NCBI RefSeq assembly: GCF_001571405.1
Contig: NZ_BCNX01000007.1
Coordinates: 62,001 to 126,000, forward strand
Origin: Methanoculleus thermophilus
GTDB lineage: Archaea; Halobacteriota; Methanomicrobia; Methanomicrobiales; Methanoculleaceae
Length of the DNA stretch: 64,000 bases
Direction: 5' to 3'
A program made the translations under genes and the position numbers. Each line of letters starts with the position of its first letter. Within the stretch, counting starts at the first letter, position 1. Positions 35,816-44,699 of this stretch are shown one piece after another. A model generated the notes under the pieces. That model had not been told where the DNA came from and made no database searches. It saw nothing but the letters and a program-made list of their open reading frames with translations.

Positions 35816-35821
35816 TTGAAT

Positions 35822-37528
35822 ATGGCAAAGATTGAGAGAACCCAGAAGCTGTTCCTGAAGGCACTCAAGGAGAAGTTCCAGGGGCAGGACGTTGAGTCCG
35901 AGACCGCCGAGTTCTACAAGTTCAACGGTGTCCGGCAGTCTCCCCGTAAGATGGAGTTCATGAAGGCAAGCCGTGCGATCGAGATGGACCGCGGCATCTC
36001 CATGTACGACCCCGAACGCTGCCACCTCGGCGGTATCCCGATGGGCCAGCGCCAGCTGATGACCTACGAGGTCTCCGGCACCGGTGTCTTCGTGGAGGGT
36101 GACGACCTGCACTTCGTCAACAACGCTGCGATGCAGCAGATGTGGGACGACATCAGGAGGACTGTCATCGTCAACATGGACCTAGCCCACCAGACCCTGC
36201 AGAAGCGTCTGGGCAAGGAAGTTACTCCTGAGACGATCAACGAGTACCTCCACATCTTAAACCACGCGATGCCCGGTGCGGCCGTCGTTCAGGAGCACAT
36301 GGTCGAGACCCACCCCGGCCTCGTCGACGACTGTTACGTCAAGGTCTTCACCGGCGACCAGGAACTCGCCGATGACCTCGAGCCCCAGTTCGTCATCGAT
36401 GTCGAGAAACTCTTCCCCGCAAAGCAGGCCGAAGCGCTCTCCGCAGCCGTTGGGAAGTCCCTCTGGCAGGCGATCCACATCCCGACCACGGTCGTCCGGA
36501 CTTGTGATGGTGGAACGACCTCCCGGTGGTCTGCAATGCAGATCGGTATGTCCTTCATCGCCGCCTACCGCATGTGCGCCGGTGAAGCGGCCGTCGCCGA
36601 CCTCTCCTACGCCGCAAAGCACGCAGGCGTCATCCAGATGGCCTCCCACCTGCCCGCCCGGCGTGCCCGTGGCCCGAACGAGCCCGGTGGTCTTGCATTC
36701 GGTCTCTTCAGCGACATCATCCAGACGAACCGGAAGTATCCGAACGACCCCGCGAAGGCTGCCCTTGAGGTTGTCGGCGCCGGAACCATGCTCTACGACC
36801 AGATCTGGCTCGGCTCCTACATGTCCGGTGGTGTCGGATTCACCCAGTACGCAACCGCGGCCTACACCGACAACATCCTCGACGAGTTCACCTACTACGG
36901 TATGGACTACATCAAGGACAAGTACAAGGTCGACTGGAAGAACCCGAGCCCGAGCGACAAGGTCAAGCCGACCTACGATGTCGTCAACGACATGGCAACC
37001 GAGGTCACCCTCAACGCCATGGAGCAGTACGAGCAGTTCCCGACGATGATGGAGGACCACTTCGGCGGATCCCAGCGTGCCGGTGTCATCGCCGCCGCAT
37101 CCGGTCTGACGGCCGCGATCGCAACCGGAAACTCCAACGCCGGTCTGAACGGATGGTACCTCTCCATGCTCCTGCACAAGGACGGATGGTCGCGTCTCGG
37201 CTTCTTCGGCTACGACCTCCAGGACCAGTGCGGTTCCGCAAACTCACTCTCCATCCGTGGGGACGAGGGTGCGATCGGCGAGGTCCGTGGTCCGAACTAC
37301 CCGAACTATGCAATGAACGTCGGTCACCAGGGAGAATACGCCGCTATTGTCGGCAGTTCCCACTACGGCCGCGGCGACGCGTGGTGCTTCGACCCGCGGG
37401 TGAAGATCTGCTTCGCCGACCCGGCGCTGAAGTTCGACTTCTCCGAACCCCGCCGCGAGTTCGCGAAGGGTGCCATCCGCGAGTTCATGCCTGCCGGCGA
37501 GCGTTCGCTCATCATTCCGGCCAGGTAA
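35822..37528 (+). CDS. mcrA: Methyl-coenzyme M reductase alpha subunit
   Basis: A 568-residue catalytic alpha chain, the marker gene of methanogens. The sites that are post-translationally modified in related enzymes are conserved: the methyl-His/methyl-Arg segment [19 protein letters not shown], and the region [17 protein letters not shown] containing the thioglycine and nearby cysteine. The F430 and coenzyme pocket residues look intact. ATG 35822 follows AAGGAG; a TTG six bases before is unlikely. Ends the mcr operon, followed by a T-run. Confidence 0.98.
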
Positions 37529-37722: not shown

Positions 37723-38619
37723 ATGGAAGAGATCGTGTTTGGCATCGGCATTACCGCATTGGCAGGTGCACTTGCAACCGTTGCCGGCGCTGCGGAGGAC
37801 GTTGAGTCTGATATCGGATCACAGGGTGATCCGAACTCGCAGGTTCAACTGGCCCCGCAGATGGGGTATATTCACCGTATCTTCAACAAGGCAGTTTCCG
37901 GTGAACCCCCCGCGTACGGCCTCTGGGTTGCCCTGGGTGCAGGCCTTGCCTGGGCATTCATGACGATGCAGATAAACCCGATACTTGCAATAGTGCTCGG
38001 GAGCGCTCTCGCGGTCTTCGTGCAGGGCGTATATGCGACAACCGCATATCTCGGTCGTACTGCAAGTCTCGCCAAGTTCGGACAGCCGGTTTACATCGAC
38101 ATCCTAAAGTCGATGACGACCGTGACCATGGCACACGCGTTTGTGGCAATCTTTACCACGGTCGCGATGTGTTACCTGATGATTGTCGCACTCGGCCACC
38201 CCTTCCCGCTCCCGTTGCTGGGTATTGTATGGGGTATTGCGCTTGGTGCGGCCGGATCTGCAACAGGTAACCCGTTCTACGGAAAGGAGCGGCAGTACCA
38301 GGAGCAGAAGTTCGGAGCCGGTGTTCCGATCTCCGCATCCGGAAACATCGTCCGCTATGCCGAAGCAGGCCAGCGGAACTCACTTGACAACGGTTTCTTC
38401 AGCGCCAAACTCGGCGGTCCCGCATCCGGGATCTGTTTTGGCCTGATCGTCTTCTTCGAACTCTGGCGTACCGTGGTCTTCGAAGAGCTCAACGCCTGGG
38501 GACCGGTCATCGTCGGTGTTGTCGTGATCCTGATCTTTGCCATCATCGACCGTTACATCGAGGTCTGGGCAAGGAAGACCTTCGGACCATACACGACTTC
38601 TGAGGAGGCATCGTCATGA
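37723..38619 (+). CDS. mtrE: Methyl-H4MPT:CoM methyltransferase subunit E
   Basis: A 298-residue integral membrane subunit of the sodium-pumping Mtr complex, which transfers the methyl group from tetrahydromethanopterin to CoM. It begins MEEIVFGIGITALAGALATVAG, has conserved polar segment IGSQGDPNSQVQLAPQMGYIHR, and several membrane spans. MtrC, D and E form the membrane sodium-translocating part. It overlaps mtrD as ATGA. Confidence 0.95.
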   Translation: MEEIVFGIGITALAGALATVAGAAEDVESDIGSQGDPNSQVQLAPQMGYIHRIFNKAVSGEPPAYGLWVALGAGLAWAFMTMQINPILAIVLGSALAVFVQGVYATTAYLGRTASLAKFGQPVYIDILKSMTTVTMAHAFVAIFTTVAMCYLMIVALGHPFPLPLLGIVWGIALGAAGSATGNPFYGKERQYQEQKFGAGVPISASGNIVRYAEAGQRNSLDNGFFSAKLGGPASGICFGLIVFFELWRTVVFEELNAWGPVIVGVVVILIFAIIDRYIEVWARKTFGPYTTSEEASS

Positions 38620-39467
38620 CCGCACTCGGAGGACCTAAACAGACTGCAGGAGTCCAGCCCCCAACTGGGATGGGTCTCGCTATCAGCATTATTCTTATCA
38701 TCGTAGCGCTTGCGCTCGCCTACTTCCTCGTGCAGATGGCAGGGGTGATCGCTCTCGTCGGCATCATCATCGGCGGCGTCCTGATCGCGTTCGGTGTTCA
38801 CTTCGTCCCGGTTGGTGGTGCTCCCGCTGCAATGGGACAATCACCAGGCATCGCGACCGGTGTCGCCATGCTCGCTGCGGGTGCCGGTCTTGCCGGCCTC
38901 TTCGGTGGCGCATGGGCCGCTCCGTTCGGATTCGGTGTCGCCCTCGCGGGCGGTGCGATCGGTGGTGGCCTCTTGATGGCAATCACCTGTACGATGGTCA
39001 ACGTCATCTACATCTTCGGCATGGGTATCCCGGCCGCCTCGGGTAAGGTCGAGAAAGACCCGATCACGGGCGACACCTTCCCTGAGTACAAGAGCCAGGG
39101 TACCGAGGGACACGGCCTTCCGTTCATCTCCTGGGTCGGCGGTGTCGTCGGCGGTGTGCTCGGAGGTCTTGGCGGAACGCTCATCTACCTTGAGCTCGTC
39201 GAGGTTTACCAGACGCAGCTTTCTGCAATCCTGGGCGCAACGGTCGACCAGATCGCGTCCGTCGCCATCTCGCTTGCCGGTATCTTTGCAATCGGCATCT
39301 TCCTGATGAACGCCGTACTTGCCGCATACAACATCACCGGTACTATCGAAGGGCCGCATGACCCCAAGTTCAAGCGGTTCCCAAGAGCAGTCATCGCAGC
39401 CGCCGTGGCATCCGCTGTTGCGGGTATCTTCGCGATCGGGCTGCTCGAACTGGTGGGGGTATTCTAA
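38616..39467 (+). CDS. mtrD: Methyl-H4MPT:CoM methyltransferase subunit D
   Basis: A 283-residue membrane subunit with multiple Gly/Ala-rich helices; the cytosolic segment KVEKDPITGDTFPEYKSQGTEGHGLPF is typical of MtrD. Part of the sodium-translocating core with MtrC and MtrE. It overlaps mtrE by four bases and is followed directly by mtrC. Confidence 0.95.
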   Translation: MTALGGPKQTAGVQPPTGMGLAISIILIIVALALAYFLVQMAGVIALVGIIIGGVLIAFGVHFVPVGGAPAAMGQSPGIATGVAMLAAGAGLAGLFGGAWAAPFGFGVALAGGAIGGGLLMAITCTMVNVIYIFGMGIPAASGKVEKDPITGDTFPEYKSQGTEGHGLPFISWVGGVVGGVLGGLGGTLIYLELVEVYQTQLSAILGATVDQIASVAISLAGIFAIGIFLMNAVLAAYNITGTIEGPHDPKFKRFPRAVIAAAVASAVAGIFAIGLLELVGVF

Positions 39468-40319
39468 ATGTCAGTGAAAGTTGAAGTCGGAGCAGGCGGC
39501 ATCCCGCACAACCGGATCCTGATCTACGGTCTTGTGGGATCGCTTATCCTCATCTACCTGACATACCTGAACACGATCACCGGTACTCAGTACTTCTCAT
39601 TCTTCGGTGGACTTGCCGCCGTCGCGGCACTCCTCTGGGGTACTGATACGATCAAGCACCTCTGCAGTTACGGTCTCGGTACCGGTGTCCCGTCAGCAGG
39701 TATGATCGCGCTCGGATCCGGCGTCATCGCCGCGCTCGTCGGAGCTACGACCGGTATCTTCGCACCCATCGTGACGATCATTGTCGCCGCGATCATCGGC
39801 GGGGTTGCCGGGATAATGGCAAACCACATCGTCCGGATGGACATCCCCGTCATGATCGCCTCATTGACCGAACTTGCGATCGTCGGCGCTATGACGGTGC
39901 TCGGCCTTGCAGCCATGACCGCCGGGACGTTCCAGTTCCTTGGCCTGATCTCGGGAACAATCGTCATCCTCGGATTCGTCGTAGAGACTTACGAGGCATC
40001 TGTCATCGGCGGTAGCATCATTGCCGTCATCTTCATGCTCGGCGCAATTGCCATCCAGCACTCCTTCAACGCCTGTCTCGGACCAGGGGAGAAGCAGGAC
40101 CGGACACTCATGCTCGCTGCAGAGTGTGGATTCCTCTCCATGATCCCCATCGCGATCATCTCATTCGCGTTCATCGCGTTCCTTCCGGCTCTCATCTCAC
40201 TGCTGGTCTCGGTCATCGGATGGTTCTACACCTACATGCGGTATATCGAGCTTGCGAAGCGTGACGCTTATGCGTGGCTTGACGCGCAGCCGATCCTCGA
40301 ACCAGAGGGAGGTGCCTAA
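39468..40319 (+). CDS. mtrC: Methyl-H4MPT:CoM methyltransferase subunit C
   Basis: A 283-residue membrane subunit with about eight hydrophobic spans (for example FFGGLAAVAALLWG, AIIGGVAGIMANHIVRMDIP, TVLGLAAMTAGTFQFLGL). Forms the sodium path with MtrD and MtrE. The start codon follows the mtrD stop with no gap, and mtrB follows in the same way. Confidence 0.95.
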   Translation: MSVKVEVGAGGIPHNRILIYGLVGSLILIYLTYLNTITGTQYFSFFGGLAAVAALLWGTDTIKHLCSYGLGTGVPSAGMIALGSGVIAALVGATTGIFAPIVTIIVAAIIGGVAGIMANHIVRMDIPVMIASLTELAIVGAMTVLGLAAMTAGTFQFLGLISGTIVILGFVVETYEASVIGGSIIAVIFMLGAIAIQHSFNACLGPGEKQDRTLMLAAECGFLSMIPIAIISFAFIAFLPALISLLVSVIGWFYTYMRYIELAKRDAYAWLDAQPILEPEGGA

Positions 40320-40604
40320 ATGGCGTACGTTCAGGTGCTGCCCGAGTTCGGACTTGTCGCCGACCCAATGGTCGGTATCGTCACCACCGCCGGTGTCTCG
40401 TACACCCCCGTACTTGAGCAGGTGGCGGAACTTGAGAAGATCACCGACGACCTGGTGGGCATGCTCTCCGGAGAGGGCAACTTCCTGGCATCGTTCCCGA
40501 ACAGGGACGGTGTGCTCAACATCGCCGGAGGCGTGACCGCATTCTGGTACGGCATGGCAGTCGGCCTCCTGGTTGCCGGTGTCGTCGTATTTGGACTGCT
40601 GTGA
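40320..40604 (+). CDS. mtrB: Methyl-H4MPT:CoM methyltransferase subunit B
   Basis: A 94-residue small subunit with one C-terminal membrane helix ([20 protein letters not shown]). Begins [19 protein letters not shown], typical of MtrB. Ten bases before mtrA; its stop region GTGAGGTGAA provides the mtrA ribosome site. Confidence 0.94.
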
Positions 40605-40614
40605 GGTGAAGAAC

Positions 40615-41129
40615 ATGGTTGAGAAGAAATCACCGGCCAGCGGATGGCCGATCATTCAGGGCGACTTCCACACGGGAGATCCGCAGAGTTGTGTCGCCGT
40701 CGTCACCATGGGATCCCACCTCGACGAACAGGCCATCTGTGATGCCGGAGCGGCAATCGCCGGGTCCTGCAAGACAGAGAACCTCGGTCTTGAGAAGATC
40801 ATCGCGAACGTCATCTCCAACCCCAACATCAGGTTCATCCTCTGCTGTGGTACGGAGGTCAAGGGACACCTCTCCGGCCAGAGTTTCATGGCTCTGCACG
40901 ATAACGGTGTCTCCGGCGGTAAGATCGTCGGCGCTCAGGGTGCCATCCCGTTCATCGAGAACCTCTCCGACGAGGCGATCAAGCGCTTCCAGGAACAGGT
41001 CGAGATGGTCAACATCATGGAAAGCGAGGACATGGGCACCATCAAGGCCAAGATCAACGAACTCAAGGCCAGAGACCCCGGTGCGTTCGGCGCGGAACCC
41101 ATGGTCGTCGAGGTCAAGGAAGCCGGTGG
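40615..41129 (+). repeat. Direct repeat copy 1 (mtrA soluble domain)
   Basis: This 515-base segment recurs at 41557-42071, offset 942 bases. The copies differ at only two positions (40641 C/T and 40650 G/A), both silent third-codon changes, and then share 479 perfectly identical bases (40651-41129). The upstream flanks are unrelated, so the repeat starts at the ATG. It ends where the two proteins begin to differ. Confidence 0.95.
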
Positions 41130-41340
41130 TGAAGGCGCAGAAGAAGTTACCGGCGAAGTACAGCCGCTCTCTGGCGAGCTGGCATTGATACACGCACGGA
41201 TGAAGATCATCGAGCAGATGGTCACCGACATCGGGTACCGCAACAGGTTTGCCGCCGGTGTCTACTCAGGCAAGATTGAGGGTCTCATGATCGGTCTGAT
41301 CGTCTCGTTCGTGATCCTGGGGTTCATCTTGCTGGGGTGA
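40615..41340 (+). CDS. mtrA: Methyl-H4MPT:CoM methyltransferase subunit A (corrinoid)
   Basis: A 241-residue corrinoid subunit that carries the methyl group on cobalt and changes shape during sodium pumping. The soluble domain (residues 1-172) includes [20 protein letters not shown] and [10 protein letters not shown], whose histidine (residue 85) matches the proposed corrinoid ligand of the family. A C-terminal membrane helix [19 protein letters not shown] anchors it. The first 515 bases are repeated almost exactly in the mtrA/mtrG fusion downstream. I chose ATG 40615 (GAGGTG before it). Confidence 0.96.
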
Positions 41341-41345
41341 GATAG

Positions 41346-41555
41346 ATGGCAGAAGAAAACACACAGGCAGGTCCCATCCGGATGGCAGCAATCAACGAGA
41401 TGATGGGCTCCATCCGTTACAAGGCGCAGATCCTTGCCCGGACAACCAAACTCGAATCGGGAATCATGGGAATGGGGCTCATCGGATTCTCTATCGGATT
41501 CCTTGTAGCCCTACTCATGATTGTGATTCCGGCACTGCTGCTGGGGGCGATCTAA
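41346..41555 (+). CDS. mtrF: Methyl-H4MPT:CoM methyltransferase subunit F
   Basis: A 69-residue subunit with one C-terminal membrane helix ([21 protein letters not shown]). The N-terminal part ([32 protein letters not shown]) is weakly like the C-terminal stalk of MtrA, as known for the family. It sits between the two mtrA-type copies. Confidence 0.93.
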
Positions 41556-41556
41556 C

Positions 41557-42071
41557 ATGGTTGAGAAGAAATCACCGGCCAGTGGATGGCCAATCATTCA
41601 GGGCGACTTCCACACGGGAGATCCGCAGAGTTGTGTCGCCGTCGTCACCATGGGATCCCACCTCGACGAACAGGCCATCTGTGATGCCGGAGCGGCAATC
41701 GCCGGGTCCTGCAAGACAGAGAACCTCGGTCTTGAGAAGATCATCGCGAACGTCATCTCCAACCCCAACATCAGGTTCATCCTCTGCTGTGGTACGGAGG
41801 TCAAGGGACACCTCTCCGGCCAGAGTTTCATGGCTCTGCACGATAACGGTGTCTCCGGCGGTAAGATCGTCGGCGCTCAGGGTGCCATCCCGTTCATCGA
41901 GAACCTCTCCGACGAGGCGATCAAGCGCTTCCAGGAACAGGTCGAGATGGTCAACATCATGGAAAGCGAGGACATGGGCACCATCAAGGCCAAGATCAAC
42001 GAACTCAAGGCCAGAGACCCCGGTGCGTTCGGCGCGGAACCCATGGTCGTCGAGGTCAAGGAAGCCGGTGG
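41557..42071 (+). repeat. Direct repeat copy 2 (mtrA domain within fusion)
   Basis: Second copy of the 515-base mtrA segment, in the same orientation. Only 427 bases of other sequence (rest of mtrA and mtrF) lie between the copies. Such near-identity in third codon positions points to very recent duplication or continuing gene conversion. Confidence 0.95.
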
Positions 42072-42297
42072 CGCCGGCGCAGAAGTTGTCGTTGCAGGCG
42101 CAAACCCACAGTTCCTTGAGATCGAAGAGAGGCTCAATGCCATCGAGAAGAGGATCGAGTTCGTCGATGCCGAGATTGCCCAGCGCGTCGGAAGGAAGAT
42201 CGGGCGCGATATCGGCATCCTGTACGGACTGGTCGCAGGTTTGATTGTATTCATGATGTTGTTGGTATTACTGCCCAAATTGATAGGGTACGTATAA
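41557..42297 (+). CDS. mtrG: Fusion of a second MtrA corrinoid domain with MtrG
   Basis: A 246-residue protein found where mtrG is expected. Residues 1-172 are identical in sequence to MtrA, including the corrinoid-site histidine. After [17 protein letters not shown] it turns into a complete Mtr[36 protein letters not shown] and a final membrane helix. The stalk and anchor of MtrA are missing. No separate mtrG exists in the operon, so MtrG is made only as this fusion, presumably adding a second corrinoid domain to each Mtr protomer. The two reading frames are intact, so it is not a pseudogene. Confidence 0.92.
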
Positions 42298-42313
42298 AGG
42301 AGGATTGACGAAT

Positions 42314-43336
42314 ATGTTCAAATTCGAAAAAGAACAGGCGGTACACGATTTCAACGGTATCAAGATCGGTGGACAGCCCGGCGAGTACCCGCGGGTTCTC
42401 GGTGCATCGATCTTCTACAACAAGCACGAGACCGTGCTTGATGACCACACTGGCAAGATTGACAAAGCAAAGGCAGAGGCGCTCTGGAACCGCTGCCAGG
42501 AACTCTCCGACATCACCGGAGTCCCCCACTTCATCCAGATCATCGCGGAATACGGTGAGGCGTTCGAGAGTTACATCGACTGGTTCTGCAGCATCGATGA
42601 CAAGACTGCGTTCCTGATGGACTCGTCGGCACCGCCCGCACTTGCACACGCCTGCAAGTACGTTACGGAAGTCGGTGTTGCCGACCGTGCGATCTACAAC
42701 TCGATCAACGGTTCGATCACGCCGGAGAACATCCAGGCGCTAAAGGAGAGCGACGTCAACGCCGCTATCGTCCTCGCGTTCAACCCCGGTGACCCGACCG
42801 TCCGTGGCCGTGAGCAGGTGCTCACCAAGGGAGGCGTTGCCGGACAGGAAAAGAGCATGCTGGCCATCGCTGAGGAATGCGGTATTACCCGCCCGATCCT
42901 CGACACCGCAGCAACCCCGCTCGGTCTCGGCTCCGGTGGCTCGTTCCGTGAGATCCTCGCCTGCAAGGCCATCCACGGTCTCCCCACCGGTGGTGCTTAC
43001 CACAACATGACGGTCTCCTGGACGTGGCTCAAGCGCTGGAGGAAGAACGTCCTCGCCGAGCAGTACAAGGGCAAGGACGTCCTTCTGGAGCAGATGGCTC
43101 ACCACCACTTCGGTGGCTTTGAGGGCATCCGCCAGGCCGCATGGTCGAGCCCCGACATCGGGTGCAACATCATGGCCGCCACCCTCGGTGCCGACCTGAT
43201 CATGTACGGGCCCATCGAGAACTGTGAGGGTGCCGCCACTGCTATCGCCTTTGCCGATATCGTGCTCGCAGAGGCAGCCAAGGAGTTCGGTATCGAGCCC
43301 AAGACTCCGAACCACCCGCTCTTTAAACTCGTCTAA
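42314..43336 (+). CDS. mtrH: Methyl-H4MPT:CoM methyltransferase subunit H
   Basis: A 340-residue peripheral TIM-barrel subunit that transfers the methyl group from methyl-tetrahydromethanopterin to the cob(I)amide of MtrA. It begins MFKFEKEQAVHDFNGIKIGG and has conserved VLGASIFYNKHE, MDSSAPPALAHACKY and HHHFGGFEGIRQAAW. ATG 42314 lies behind AAAGGAGGA; the in-frame TTG at 42305 is less likely. Last gene of the mtr operon; a T-run follows. Confidence 0.96.
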   Translation: MFKFEKEQAVHDFNGIKIGGQPGEYPRVLGASIFYNKHETVLDDHTGKIDKAKAEALWNRCQELSDITGVPHFIQIIAEYGEAFESYIDWFCSIDDKTAFLMDSSAPPALAHACKYVTEVGVADRAIYNSINGSITPENIQALKESDVNAAIVLAFNPGDPTVRGREQVLTKGGVAGQEKSMLAIAEECGITRPILDTAATPLGLGSGGSFREILACKAIHGLPTGGAYHNMTVSWTWLKRWRKNVLAEQYKGKDVLLEQMAHHHFGGFEGIRQAAWSSPDIGCNIMAATLGADLIMYGPIENCEGAATAIAFADIVLAEAAKEFGIEPKTPNHPLFKLV

Positions 43337-43346: not shown

Positions 43347-43548
43347 CAGGACCGTTCGCACCGGGACTGATCAATTCCACACGAGTTCTTCAGCCAGGCA
43401 ATCGCCCGATGGCCGGCTATGAACGGTCGATGGCGCCTTCAGCGATCTTTACACCCCTGCAATCTATCCGCTCCTTCCGGTGGACAGACGCTATAGACCG
43501 GATACGCGACTACACAAAATTTGCTGTTTCCTTGAGATATCACTGGTT

Positions 43549-43554
43549 AAAAAA
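43549..43554 (-). terminator. T-run terminator of the SelB-like gene
   Basis: Six A residues on the plus strand (T on the minus strand), about 30 bases downstream of the stop at 43586. The remaining 43347-43585 stretch holds no recognisable gene. Confidence 0.5.
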
Positions 43555-43585
43555 GAAGGATGCCCGGAGTCAGAATCGCTGCTGC

Positions 43586-44551
43586 TCAGGCCAACTCGAT
43601 ATGCCCGGCGATCCGGAGTTTCCCGCCCTCGAGGTAGTGGAGCACCGCCGTGTCGCCCGGGAGGTAGACGAGATCCTTTTCGAGCGCAAGCGTGAGCGTC
43701 GGCTGCCGCCAGTCCCCATCATCCCGCACCGCCTCAACCCGCGCCGGGATGAACTGCATCCAGTGACCGAGGTGGAGAACAGTTCCTACGGCAAGCGGTG
43801 CCGGCCAGTACCTGACCAGGGTGGCTCGTGCCTCGATATGAGCCCCGGTCCGGATGTTGGGGTCGCTCGAGAGGACAAAACCTCGATCGAGTTCGTCGGA
43901 GTCGATGTTCTTGAGCGCGATCCCCACGCGGTCGCCTTCAGCGGCCCAGTCAAAGTCGTCGTCGTGCTTCTGGATGGACCGGACCGAGATCGCCTTCTCC
44001 CCTGGGTAGACCTTCAGGGTATCGTGCTTGTGGATACCCCCCCGCGCCACGACGCCGAGGATGACCGTCCCGATGCCGCGGACGTTGAAGTGGTGGTCGA
44101 TGGGGATGGTTCCAGAAGCATCGGCACCGGGCTGGGAGGAGGGGCGGGCATGCGCCGCGCCAAGCATGAGATCGCGCAGCGCGATCGGATCAGCGTCTAC
44201 GAACTCGTAGTGCTCAAGCACTGTCCCGCGGAAGAGCGGGGCGACCTCTTGTTGGGTCAGGTAATTCTGGAGGATGACGTAACCCCGCTCCACCCGCGCC
44301 TCATCGAGCATCAGTACCCATTCCCCGAGCGTCGGGGTGATCTCGCCGACAACGACAAGAGCCACATCAGCGAGCGATACGGCATAAAAGAGCGGAGCCA
44401 ACCGCTCGGGATACCGTGTCGGTTCGATGAAGGTGACGGTATCCTCACCTTTCTTGAGGTTGTAGAATGTGATATCGGAGGTCGTGCCTTTCTTCCCGAG
44501 GTCCTTCGCGTACCCTGCGGGTCCCAGCACGGCAACATTCAGATTGCCCAT
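43586..44551 (-). CDS. EF-Tu/SelB-like protein with a degenerate GTPase domain
   Basis: A 321-residue protein. The N-terminal half resembles a translational GTPase fold but lacks the standard P-loop: the region reads VLGPAGYAKDLGKKGTTSDI. The DXXG and NKXD motifs are not evident. The C-terminal half contains EF-Tu domain 2/3-type segments (HHFNVRGIGTVILGVVARGGIHKHDTLKV, SDPNIRTGAHIEARATLVRYWPAPL). This fits the archaeal SelB-like (aSelBL) group described as a SelB paralogue that has lost GTPase motifs. Its role is unknown. No selenoprotein genes are apparent in the window. Sits alone between the mtr and btu units, transcribed opposite to both. Confidence 0.7.
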   Translation of the reverse strand: MGNLNVAVLGPAGYAKDLGKKGTTSDITFYNLKKGEDTVTFIEPTRYPERLAPLFYAVSLADVALVVVGEITPTLGEWVLMLDEARVERGYVILQNYLTQQEVAPLFRGTVLEHYEFVDADPIALRDLMLGAAHARPSSQPGADASGTIPIDHHFNVRGIGTVILGVVARGGIHKHDTLKVYPGEKAISVRSIQKHDDDFDWAAEGDRVGIALKNIDSDELDRGFVLSSDPNIRTGAHIEARATLVRYWPAPLAVGTVLHLGHWMQFIPARVEAVRDDGDWRQPTLTLALEKDLVYLPGDTAVLHYLEGGKLRIAGHIELA

Positions 44552-44699
44552 ATGCCAGATCGTTTGGTTATGCAGGGGTATGAGGTTTGCTCCATGCAGT
44601 TAGAGGGGAGAGATTCGCACATCGACGGGATCATTTGCATATACACCCGATCCAGGGTGAGAACCCCCACAGATAATCCAGATAGGTTTTAACAAAGTA

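Follow-up and report, generated by a model that had tools for sequence, protein, structure and literature searches.

A second MtrA corrinoid domain fused to MtrG in the mtr operon of a Methanoculleus species and throughout the Methanomicrobiales

The mtr operon described here encodes two copies of the MtrA corrinoid domain, one in an ordinary MtrA (mtrA-1) and the other joined in a single open reading frame to MtrG. In methanogenesis from H2 and CO2, Mtr carries out the methyl transfer at which energy is conserved. The fusion is confirmed as real, as order-wide in Methanomicrobiales, and as previously published: it is the already known mtrA-2b of this order, reported in 2015. Judging from gene content and residue conservation, two corrinoid domains per Mtr protomer are likely. 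We consider it highly probable that mtrA-2b is an ancient corrinoid-domain duplicate that replaced the N-terminal residues of MtrG, has stayed almost the same as mtrA-1 through gene conversion, and provides each protomer with a second carrier. A whole order of methanogens would then double its B12 carrier, with the second one anchored on MtrG, which makes carrier stoichiometry and partner use directly testable.

The mtr operon and the fusion gene

In the window (the whole stretch of 64,000 nucleotides that was analyzed), open reading frames (ORFs) on the forward strand at positions 37723-43336 make up an mtr operon with the order mtrE-D-C-B-A-F-(A/G)-H (Table 1). The final gene of the mcr cluster, mcrA (35816-37528), is located directly 5' of mtrE (37723 onward), an adjacency that sets the genes for the last two methanogenesis steps side by side. 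Just 3' of mtrH, on the opposite strand, an ORF at 43586-44551 resembles, by eye, a translation-factor-like GTPase; a longer forward-strand ORF that overlaps it (43409-44692) is probably spurious.

Table 1. Genes of the mtr operon and the two copies of the repeat, in window coordinates.
Feature	Position	Strand	Basis
mtrE	37723..38619	+	ORF, place in conserved mtr order
mtrD	38616..39467	+	ORF, place in conserved mtr order
mtrC	39468..40319	+	ORF, place in conserved mtr order
mtrB	40320..40604	+	Match to MtrB chains in solved structures of Mtr (9qtp, 8q3v)
Repeat copy 1	40612..41130	+	516/519 nt the same as copy 2
mtrA-1	40615..41340	+	241 aa; Pfam MtrA, E 1e-86; NCBIfam TIGR01111 mtrA, 349 bits
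mtrF	41346..41555	+	69 aa; Pfam MtrF, E 1.6e-20
Repeat copy 2	41554..42072	+	516/519 nt the same as copy 1
mtrA-2b	41557..42297	+	246 aa; corrinoid domain (1-172) and MtrG in one ORF (Pfam, translation)
MtrG part of mtrA-2b	42097..42294	+	phmmer vs 9qtq_S (E 9e-16) and 8q3v_G (E 3e-13)
mtrH	42314..43336	+	ATG 3' of AGGAGG; ORF spans 42305-43336

The product of mtrA-1 is an ordinary MtrA, in which the corrinoid domain (residues 1-172) is followed by its own stalk/membrane helix, and the mtrB product retains the N-terminal region that corresponds to the MtrH-docking part in the M. mazei structure. In the fusion protein, a Pfam MtrA domain at residues 4-172 (E 1.5e-86) and an MtrG domain at residues 183-237 (E 1.1e-22) are connected by a linker rich in Gly, Ala, and Glu. 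The stalk helix and membrane segment of MtrG are present, and solved MtrG chains were matched from residues 14 and 18 onward. Since the alignment to the solved chains begins there, the extreme N-terminus of free MtrG (the first dozen or so residues) has been replaced by the corrinoid domain.

Over codons 1-172, mtrA-1 and the fusion gene share 513 of 516 nucleotides at a 942-nt offset, and all three differences are synonymous; 479 consecutive nucleotides (40651-41129) are the same in both copies. The similarity is sharply bounded by the start codon on one side and by the 3' limit of the domain on the other. At the protein level, the two domains of 172 residues are 100% identical, as seen both in the translations and by tblastn. 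A near-identical repeat of 516 nt in two genes far exceeds what chance would produce.

The genome contains exactly two MtrA-domain genes. A profile search detected no free MtrG in it, the fused MtrG being the only match over the cut-off. Weaker matches in this genome were considered as a possible hidden free mtrG and rejected: they peak at 14.8 bits, compared to a cut-off of 27, and a search for free MtrG that lax also returns matches in 12 of the 14 genomes used as controls, E. coli among them. The best named matches over the fusion were to proteins of Methanoculleus species, with 88-94% identity. The host is thus one more species of that group, and these relatives, together with the order-level genome sample, place it within Methanomicrobiales.

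An earlier, sequence-only reading of this DNA had put forward the gene coordinates and the MtrA-MtrG fusion, the gene order of the operon, the protein identity over residues 1-172, and the lack of a separate mtrG. The coordinates turned out to be exact, with Pfam MtrA and MtrG falling in one frame; the order agreed with both ORFs and domain profiles; and the remaining two points were borne out by the comparisons given above.

Concerted evolution of the two MtrA domains and its lapse

The fused copy shows concerted evolution with mtrA-1. In 64 distinct within-genome mtrA-1/mtrA-2b pairs, the nucleotide identity of paralogous MtrA domains was 94.6% on average (79.4-100%), compared to about 75% for orthologues from different genomes, and members of 47 pairs were exclusive sisters in the domain tree. 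In the genome studied here, the two copies are 99.6% identical at the nucleotide level over 168 codons, and the sequence nearest to the fused MtrA domain is that of its own paralogue.

Most non-sister pairs came from a few lineages, where copy 1 grouped with copy 1 and copy 2 with copy 2. The second copies of six Methanospirillum-type loci formed a clade of their own with a support of 1.0, those of five Methanocorpusculum loci formed another with a support of 0.999, and the two Methanomicrobium loci were likewise grouped copy-wise. Homogenization was escaped in Methanospirillum, Methanomicrobium, and part of Methanocorpusculum, where the copies are 79-95% identical in nucleotide sequence. At loci L077, L082, L085, L087-L090, L094, and L102, which belong to Methanospirillum, Methanomicrobium, and one Methanospirillaceae MAG, the identity is 79-83%, and from this divergence of mtrA-1 and mtrA-2b we conclude that gene conversion has lapsed there. 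Between A1 and A2, 20 fixed residue differences are common to both Methanomicrobium loci.

Gene conversion alone could make the two copies identical, so their identity in the present genome is uninformative about the function of each copy. The diverged lineages allow this question to be addressed. The most diverged A1-A2 pairs gave dS values of 0.7-1.6 and dN/dS ratios of 0.04-0.12 (calculated by the simple Nei-Gojobori method with Jukes-Cantor correction, with some dS values approaching saturation), while the A2-A2 dN/dS ratio in Methanospirillum was 0.05, as low as that of copy 1. In the solved MtrA protein, cobalt is held by the His84/Glu54 pair, and His84, Glu54, and GAIPF constitute the motif (PMC4915002). 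The corresponding residues here, His85 and Glu55, are kept by both copies in all 64 pairs, as are Ile111, Phe113, Glu115, and Asn116. Both copies here, and those of 64/64 pairs, likewise contain the GAIPF meander motif, when either P or A is allowed at position 112. Conversion provides no explanation in the diverged lineages, and the second domain is nevertheless constrained there in the manner of a working corrinoid protein.

These data bear on whether the second domain could be a passenger with a structural or regulatory role, identical to the first only as a by-product of conversion, while catalysis is carried out by mtrA-1. Conversion alone would indeed keep the copies alike in most genomes, and one MtrA is enough for methanogens outside the two or three fusion-bearing lineages. 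However, where conversion lapsed, the second domain was under strong purifying selection and kept every listed corrinoid-contact residue; in addition, an equivalent fusion with MtrF arose independently in Methanococcales, according to the 2015 paper. A passenger role is thus unlikely. Two working corrinoid carriers per protomer are the likely arrangement: the sequence-only reading had claimed two corrinoid domains in each protomer, and conservation in the diverged lineages supports this claim, while the count of corrins itself is a reasonable inference. In the literature searched, with most subscription journals outside its reach, neither a structure nor a proteome nor a cobalt count was found for Mtr from Methanomicrobiales.

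Predicted arrangement of the two carriers in the Mtr complex

In the M. marburgensis Mtr, the stalk has the N-termini of MtrA, MtrB, MtrF, and MtrG at its cytoplasmic end (PMC10998594). The B12 domain of MtrA is mobile on a disordered Gly/Glu-rich linker that extends from the stalk, and has been suggested to move back and forth from MtrH to the MtrCDE cavity (PMC10998594). Cryo-EM revealed MtrG as a stalk helix that forms a membrane-embedded three-helix bundle on the threefold axis, with a proposed role as a hydrophobic seal (PMC10998594); the remark of the sequence-only reading that details of MtrG function are lacking is therefore out of date. The MtrA and MtrG of the M. marburgensis (8q3v) and M. 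mazei (9qtq) complexes are homologous by sequence to those described here, but in both complexes each protomer contains a single MtrA and a single free MtrG, without any fusion.

Because the fusion is the sole source of MtrG, the mtrA-1 and mtrA-2b polypeptides should both enter the same Mtr complex, unless the protein is cut. Each would hang a mobile B12 domain off the cytoplasmic stalk via a short flexible linker, with the MtrG-tethered domain positioned beside the MtrA-1 domain on a similar linker, so that a protomer would have two carriers and a trimer six. The surface of the second domain is the same as that of the first, and it could therefore make the same contacts. Both domains would then accept the methyl group of methyl-H4MPT at MtrH and pass it on, at MtrCDE, to coenzyme M, a reaction that drives Na+ export; gene conversion or selection would keep both compatible with the same partners.

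Speculatively, the second carrier may raise turnover or may engage whichever active site of the MtrH dimer the first carrier leaves unused. The M. mazei Mtr contains three MtrH dimers (six MtrH) and three MtrA; within an MtrH dimer the two active sites face opposite ways, and only the membrane-proximal one likely meets MtrA (PMC12774963). This ratio of two MtrH per MtrA leads us to the testable speculation that the extra carrier might work at the other MtrH site, so that two carriers in a protomer would correspond to two MtrH sites. The N-termini of small stalk subunits join a sheet at the MtrH docking region. Both types of fusion, that with MtrG and that with MtrF, load the extra domain on small stalk subunits, which would fit the same speculation. 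A joint reading, which also includes two shuttles that have started to specialize in Methanospirillum and Methanomicrobium, where homogenization ceased, appears rather doubtful to us when taken as a whole.

The arrangement with both domains in one complex would not hold if post-translational cleavage of the fusion, or internal initiation of MtrG, yielded a free MtrG of the usual kind alongside an additional soluble MtrA domain. The flexible soluble domain of MtrA and its linker in known structures (PMC10998594) make cleavage conceivable, and cytoplasmic MtrA homologues exist (PMC4915002). Yet the linker and the fusion are conserved throughout the order, and no in-frame ATG, GTG, or TTG is present within the 30 junction codons in 54 of 64 genomes, the present one among them; both observations speak against this rival. 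We regard separation of the two parts as very improbable.

Relation to published fusions

The sequence-only reading was uncertain whether the fusion had been described. The matter is settled by Wang, Chen, Cao and Lou (2015; PMC4632066), who described a second mtrA joined to mtrG (mtrA-2b) in Methanomicrobiales, located between mtrF and mtrH. They also described a second mtrA joined to mtrF (mtrA-2a) in Methanococcales and in Methanocella arvoryzae; in their judgement, mtrA-2a and mtrA-2b arose independently. Within-species homogenization of MtrA domains by gene conversion was shown there by phylogeny and GENECONV analysis, and the data set included Methanoculleus bourgensis and M. marisnigri (PMC4632066). 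In a 2018 genome-wide survey, the mtrA fusion was picked up again (PMC6053082).

The gene described here is the same gene as the mtrA-2b of PMC4632066, in the same order, with the same place in the operon, the same fusion partner, and the same homogenization with mtrA-1. There is no essential difference; the present gene comes from another species of the group. The mtrA-2a gene shares with it a second MtrA domain on a small stalk subunit and concerted evolution with mtrA-1, but differs in that its partner is MtrF and that it sits between mtrA-1 and mtrG; its origin is independent according to the authors. The constraint on the second domain in diverged lineages is a modest extension beyond the 2015 and 2018 papers, and the argument does not occur in the available passages of PMC4632066 and PMC6053082. 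These lineages constitute a natural experiment, since their two copies can be distinguished by peptide and by mutation.

Distribution of the fusion in and beyond the order

A search of Methanomicrobiales genomes for the mtrA-mtrG fusion, as suggested by the sequence-only reading, was carried out on a sample of 199 genomes of the order, and the fusion was found to be order-wide. An MtrG match was obtained in 163/199 genomes, and among the matches listed the Methanomicrobiales MtrG frames were 201-319 aa long, unless interrupted by a contig end or a frame break. On the basis of these frames, essentially every MtrG found in the 199 genomes appears to be fused. In the phylum sample, all 47 MtrG-bearing genomes outside the order had a free MtrG, in frames of 67-125 aa. 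The match to the MtrG profile started at positions 1-6 outside the order and at about positions 5-11 inside it. As judged from the genomes sampled, the fusion marks the order cleanly within its phylum.

A recent duplication or an assembly artefact confined to this genome, which might be suspected from the 99.4% identity of the copies and from the breakage or collapse of assemblies at the repeat in several draft genomes, has a negligible probability and is ruled out by the order-wide presence of the fusion, by the location of both copies inside a 348-kb contig, and by the same layout in single-contig genomes of the genus, of the order, and of several families, where the copies are up to ~20% apart in nucleotide sequence.

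Short MtrG frames in draft genomes were inspected as possible unfused cases, and all 12 were rejected. Ten of them reach a contig end, and contigs that end inside the repeat are expected of short-read assembly of a 500-nt repeat. The other two (L121 and L125) contain a frame break or an N run within a recognizable MtrA domain. Three MAGs labelled Methanoregula and Methanolinea (L062, L065, and L067) have one MtrA domain, with mtrB running straight into (A/G)-H, and throughout their genomes neither an mtrA-1 tail nor mtrF was found. Collapse of the repeat in short-read assembly is the most likely cause, with a real deletion as the alternative, and, given that collapse is likely, claims of mtrA-1 or mtrF loss in such MAGs should be distrusted. 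N runs are present in mtrA-1 of L041 and L045, and the apparent frameshifts in several operon genes of L071 point to probable sequencing errors. A record titled 'Bacilli bacterium' (L099) carries the full Methanomicrobiales mtrA pair, probably on a contaminating contig in the bin.
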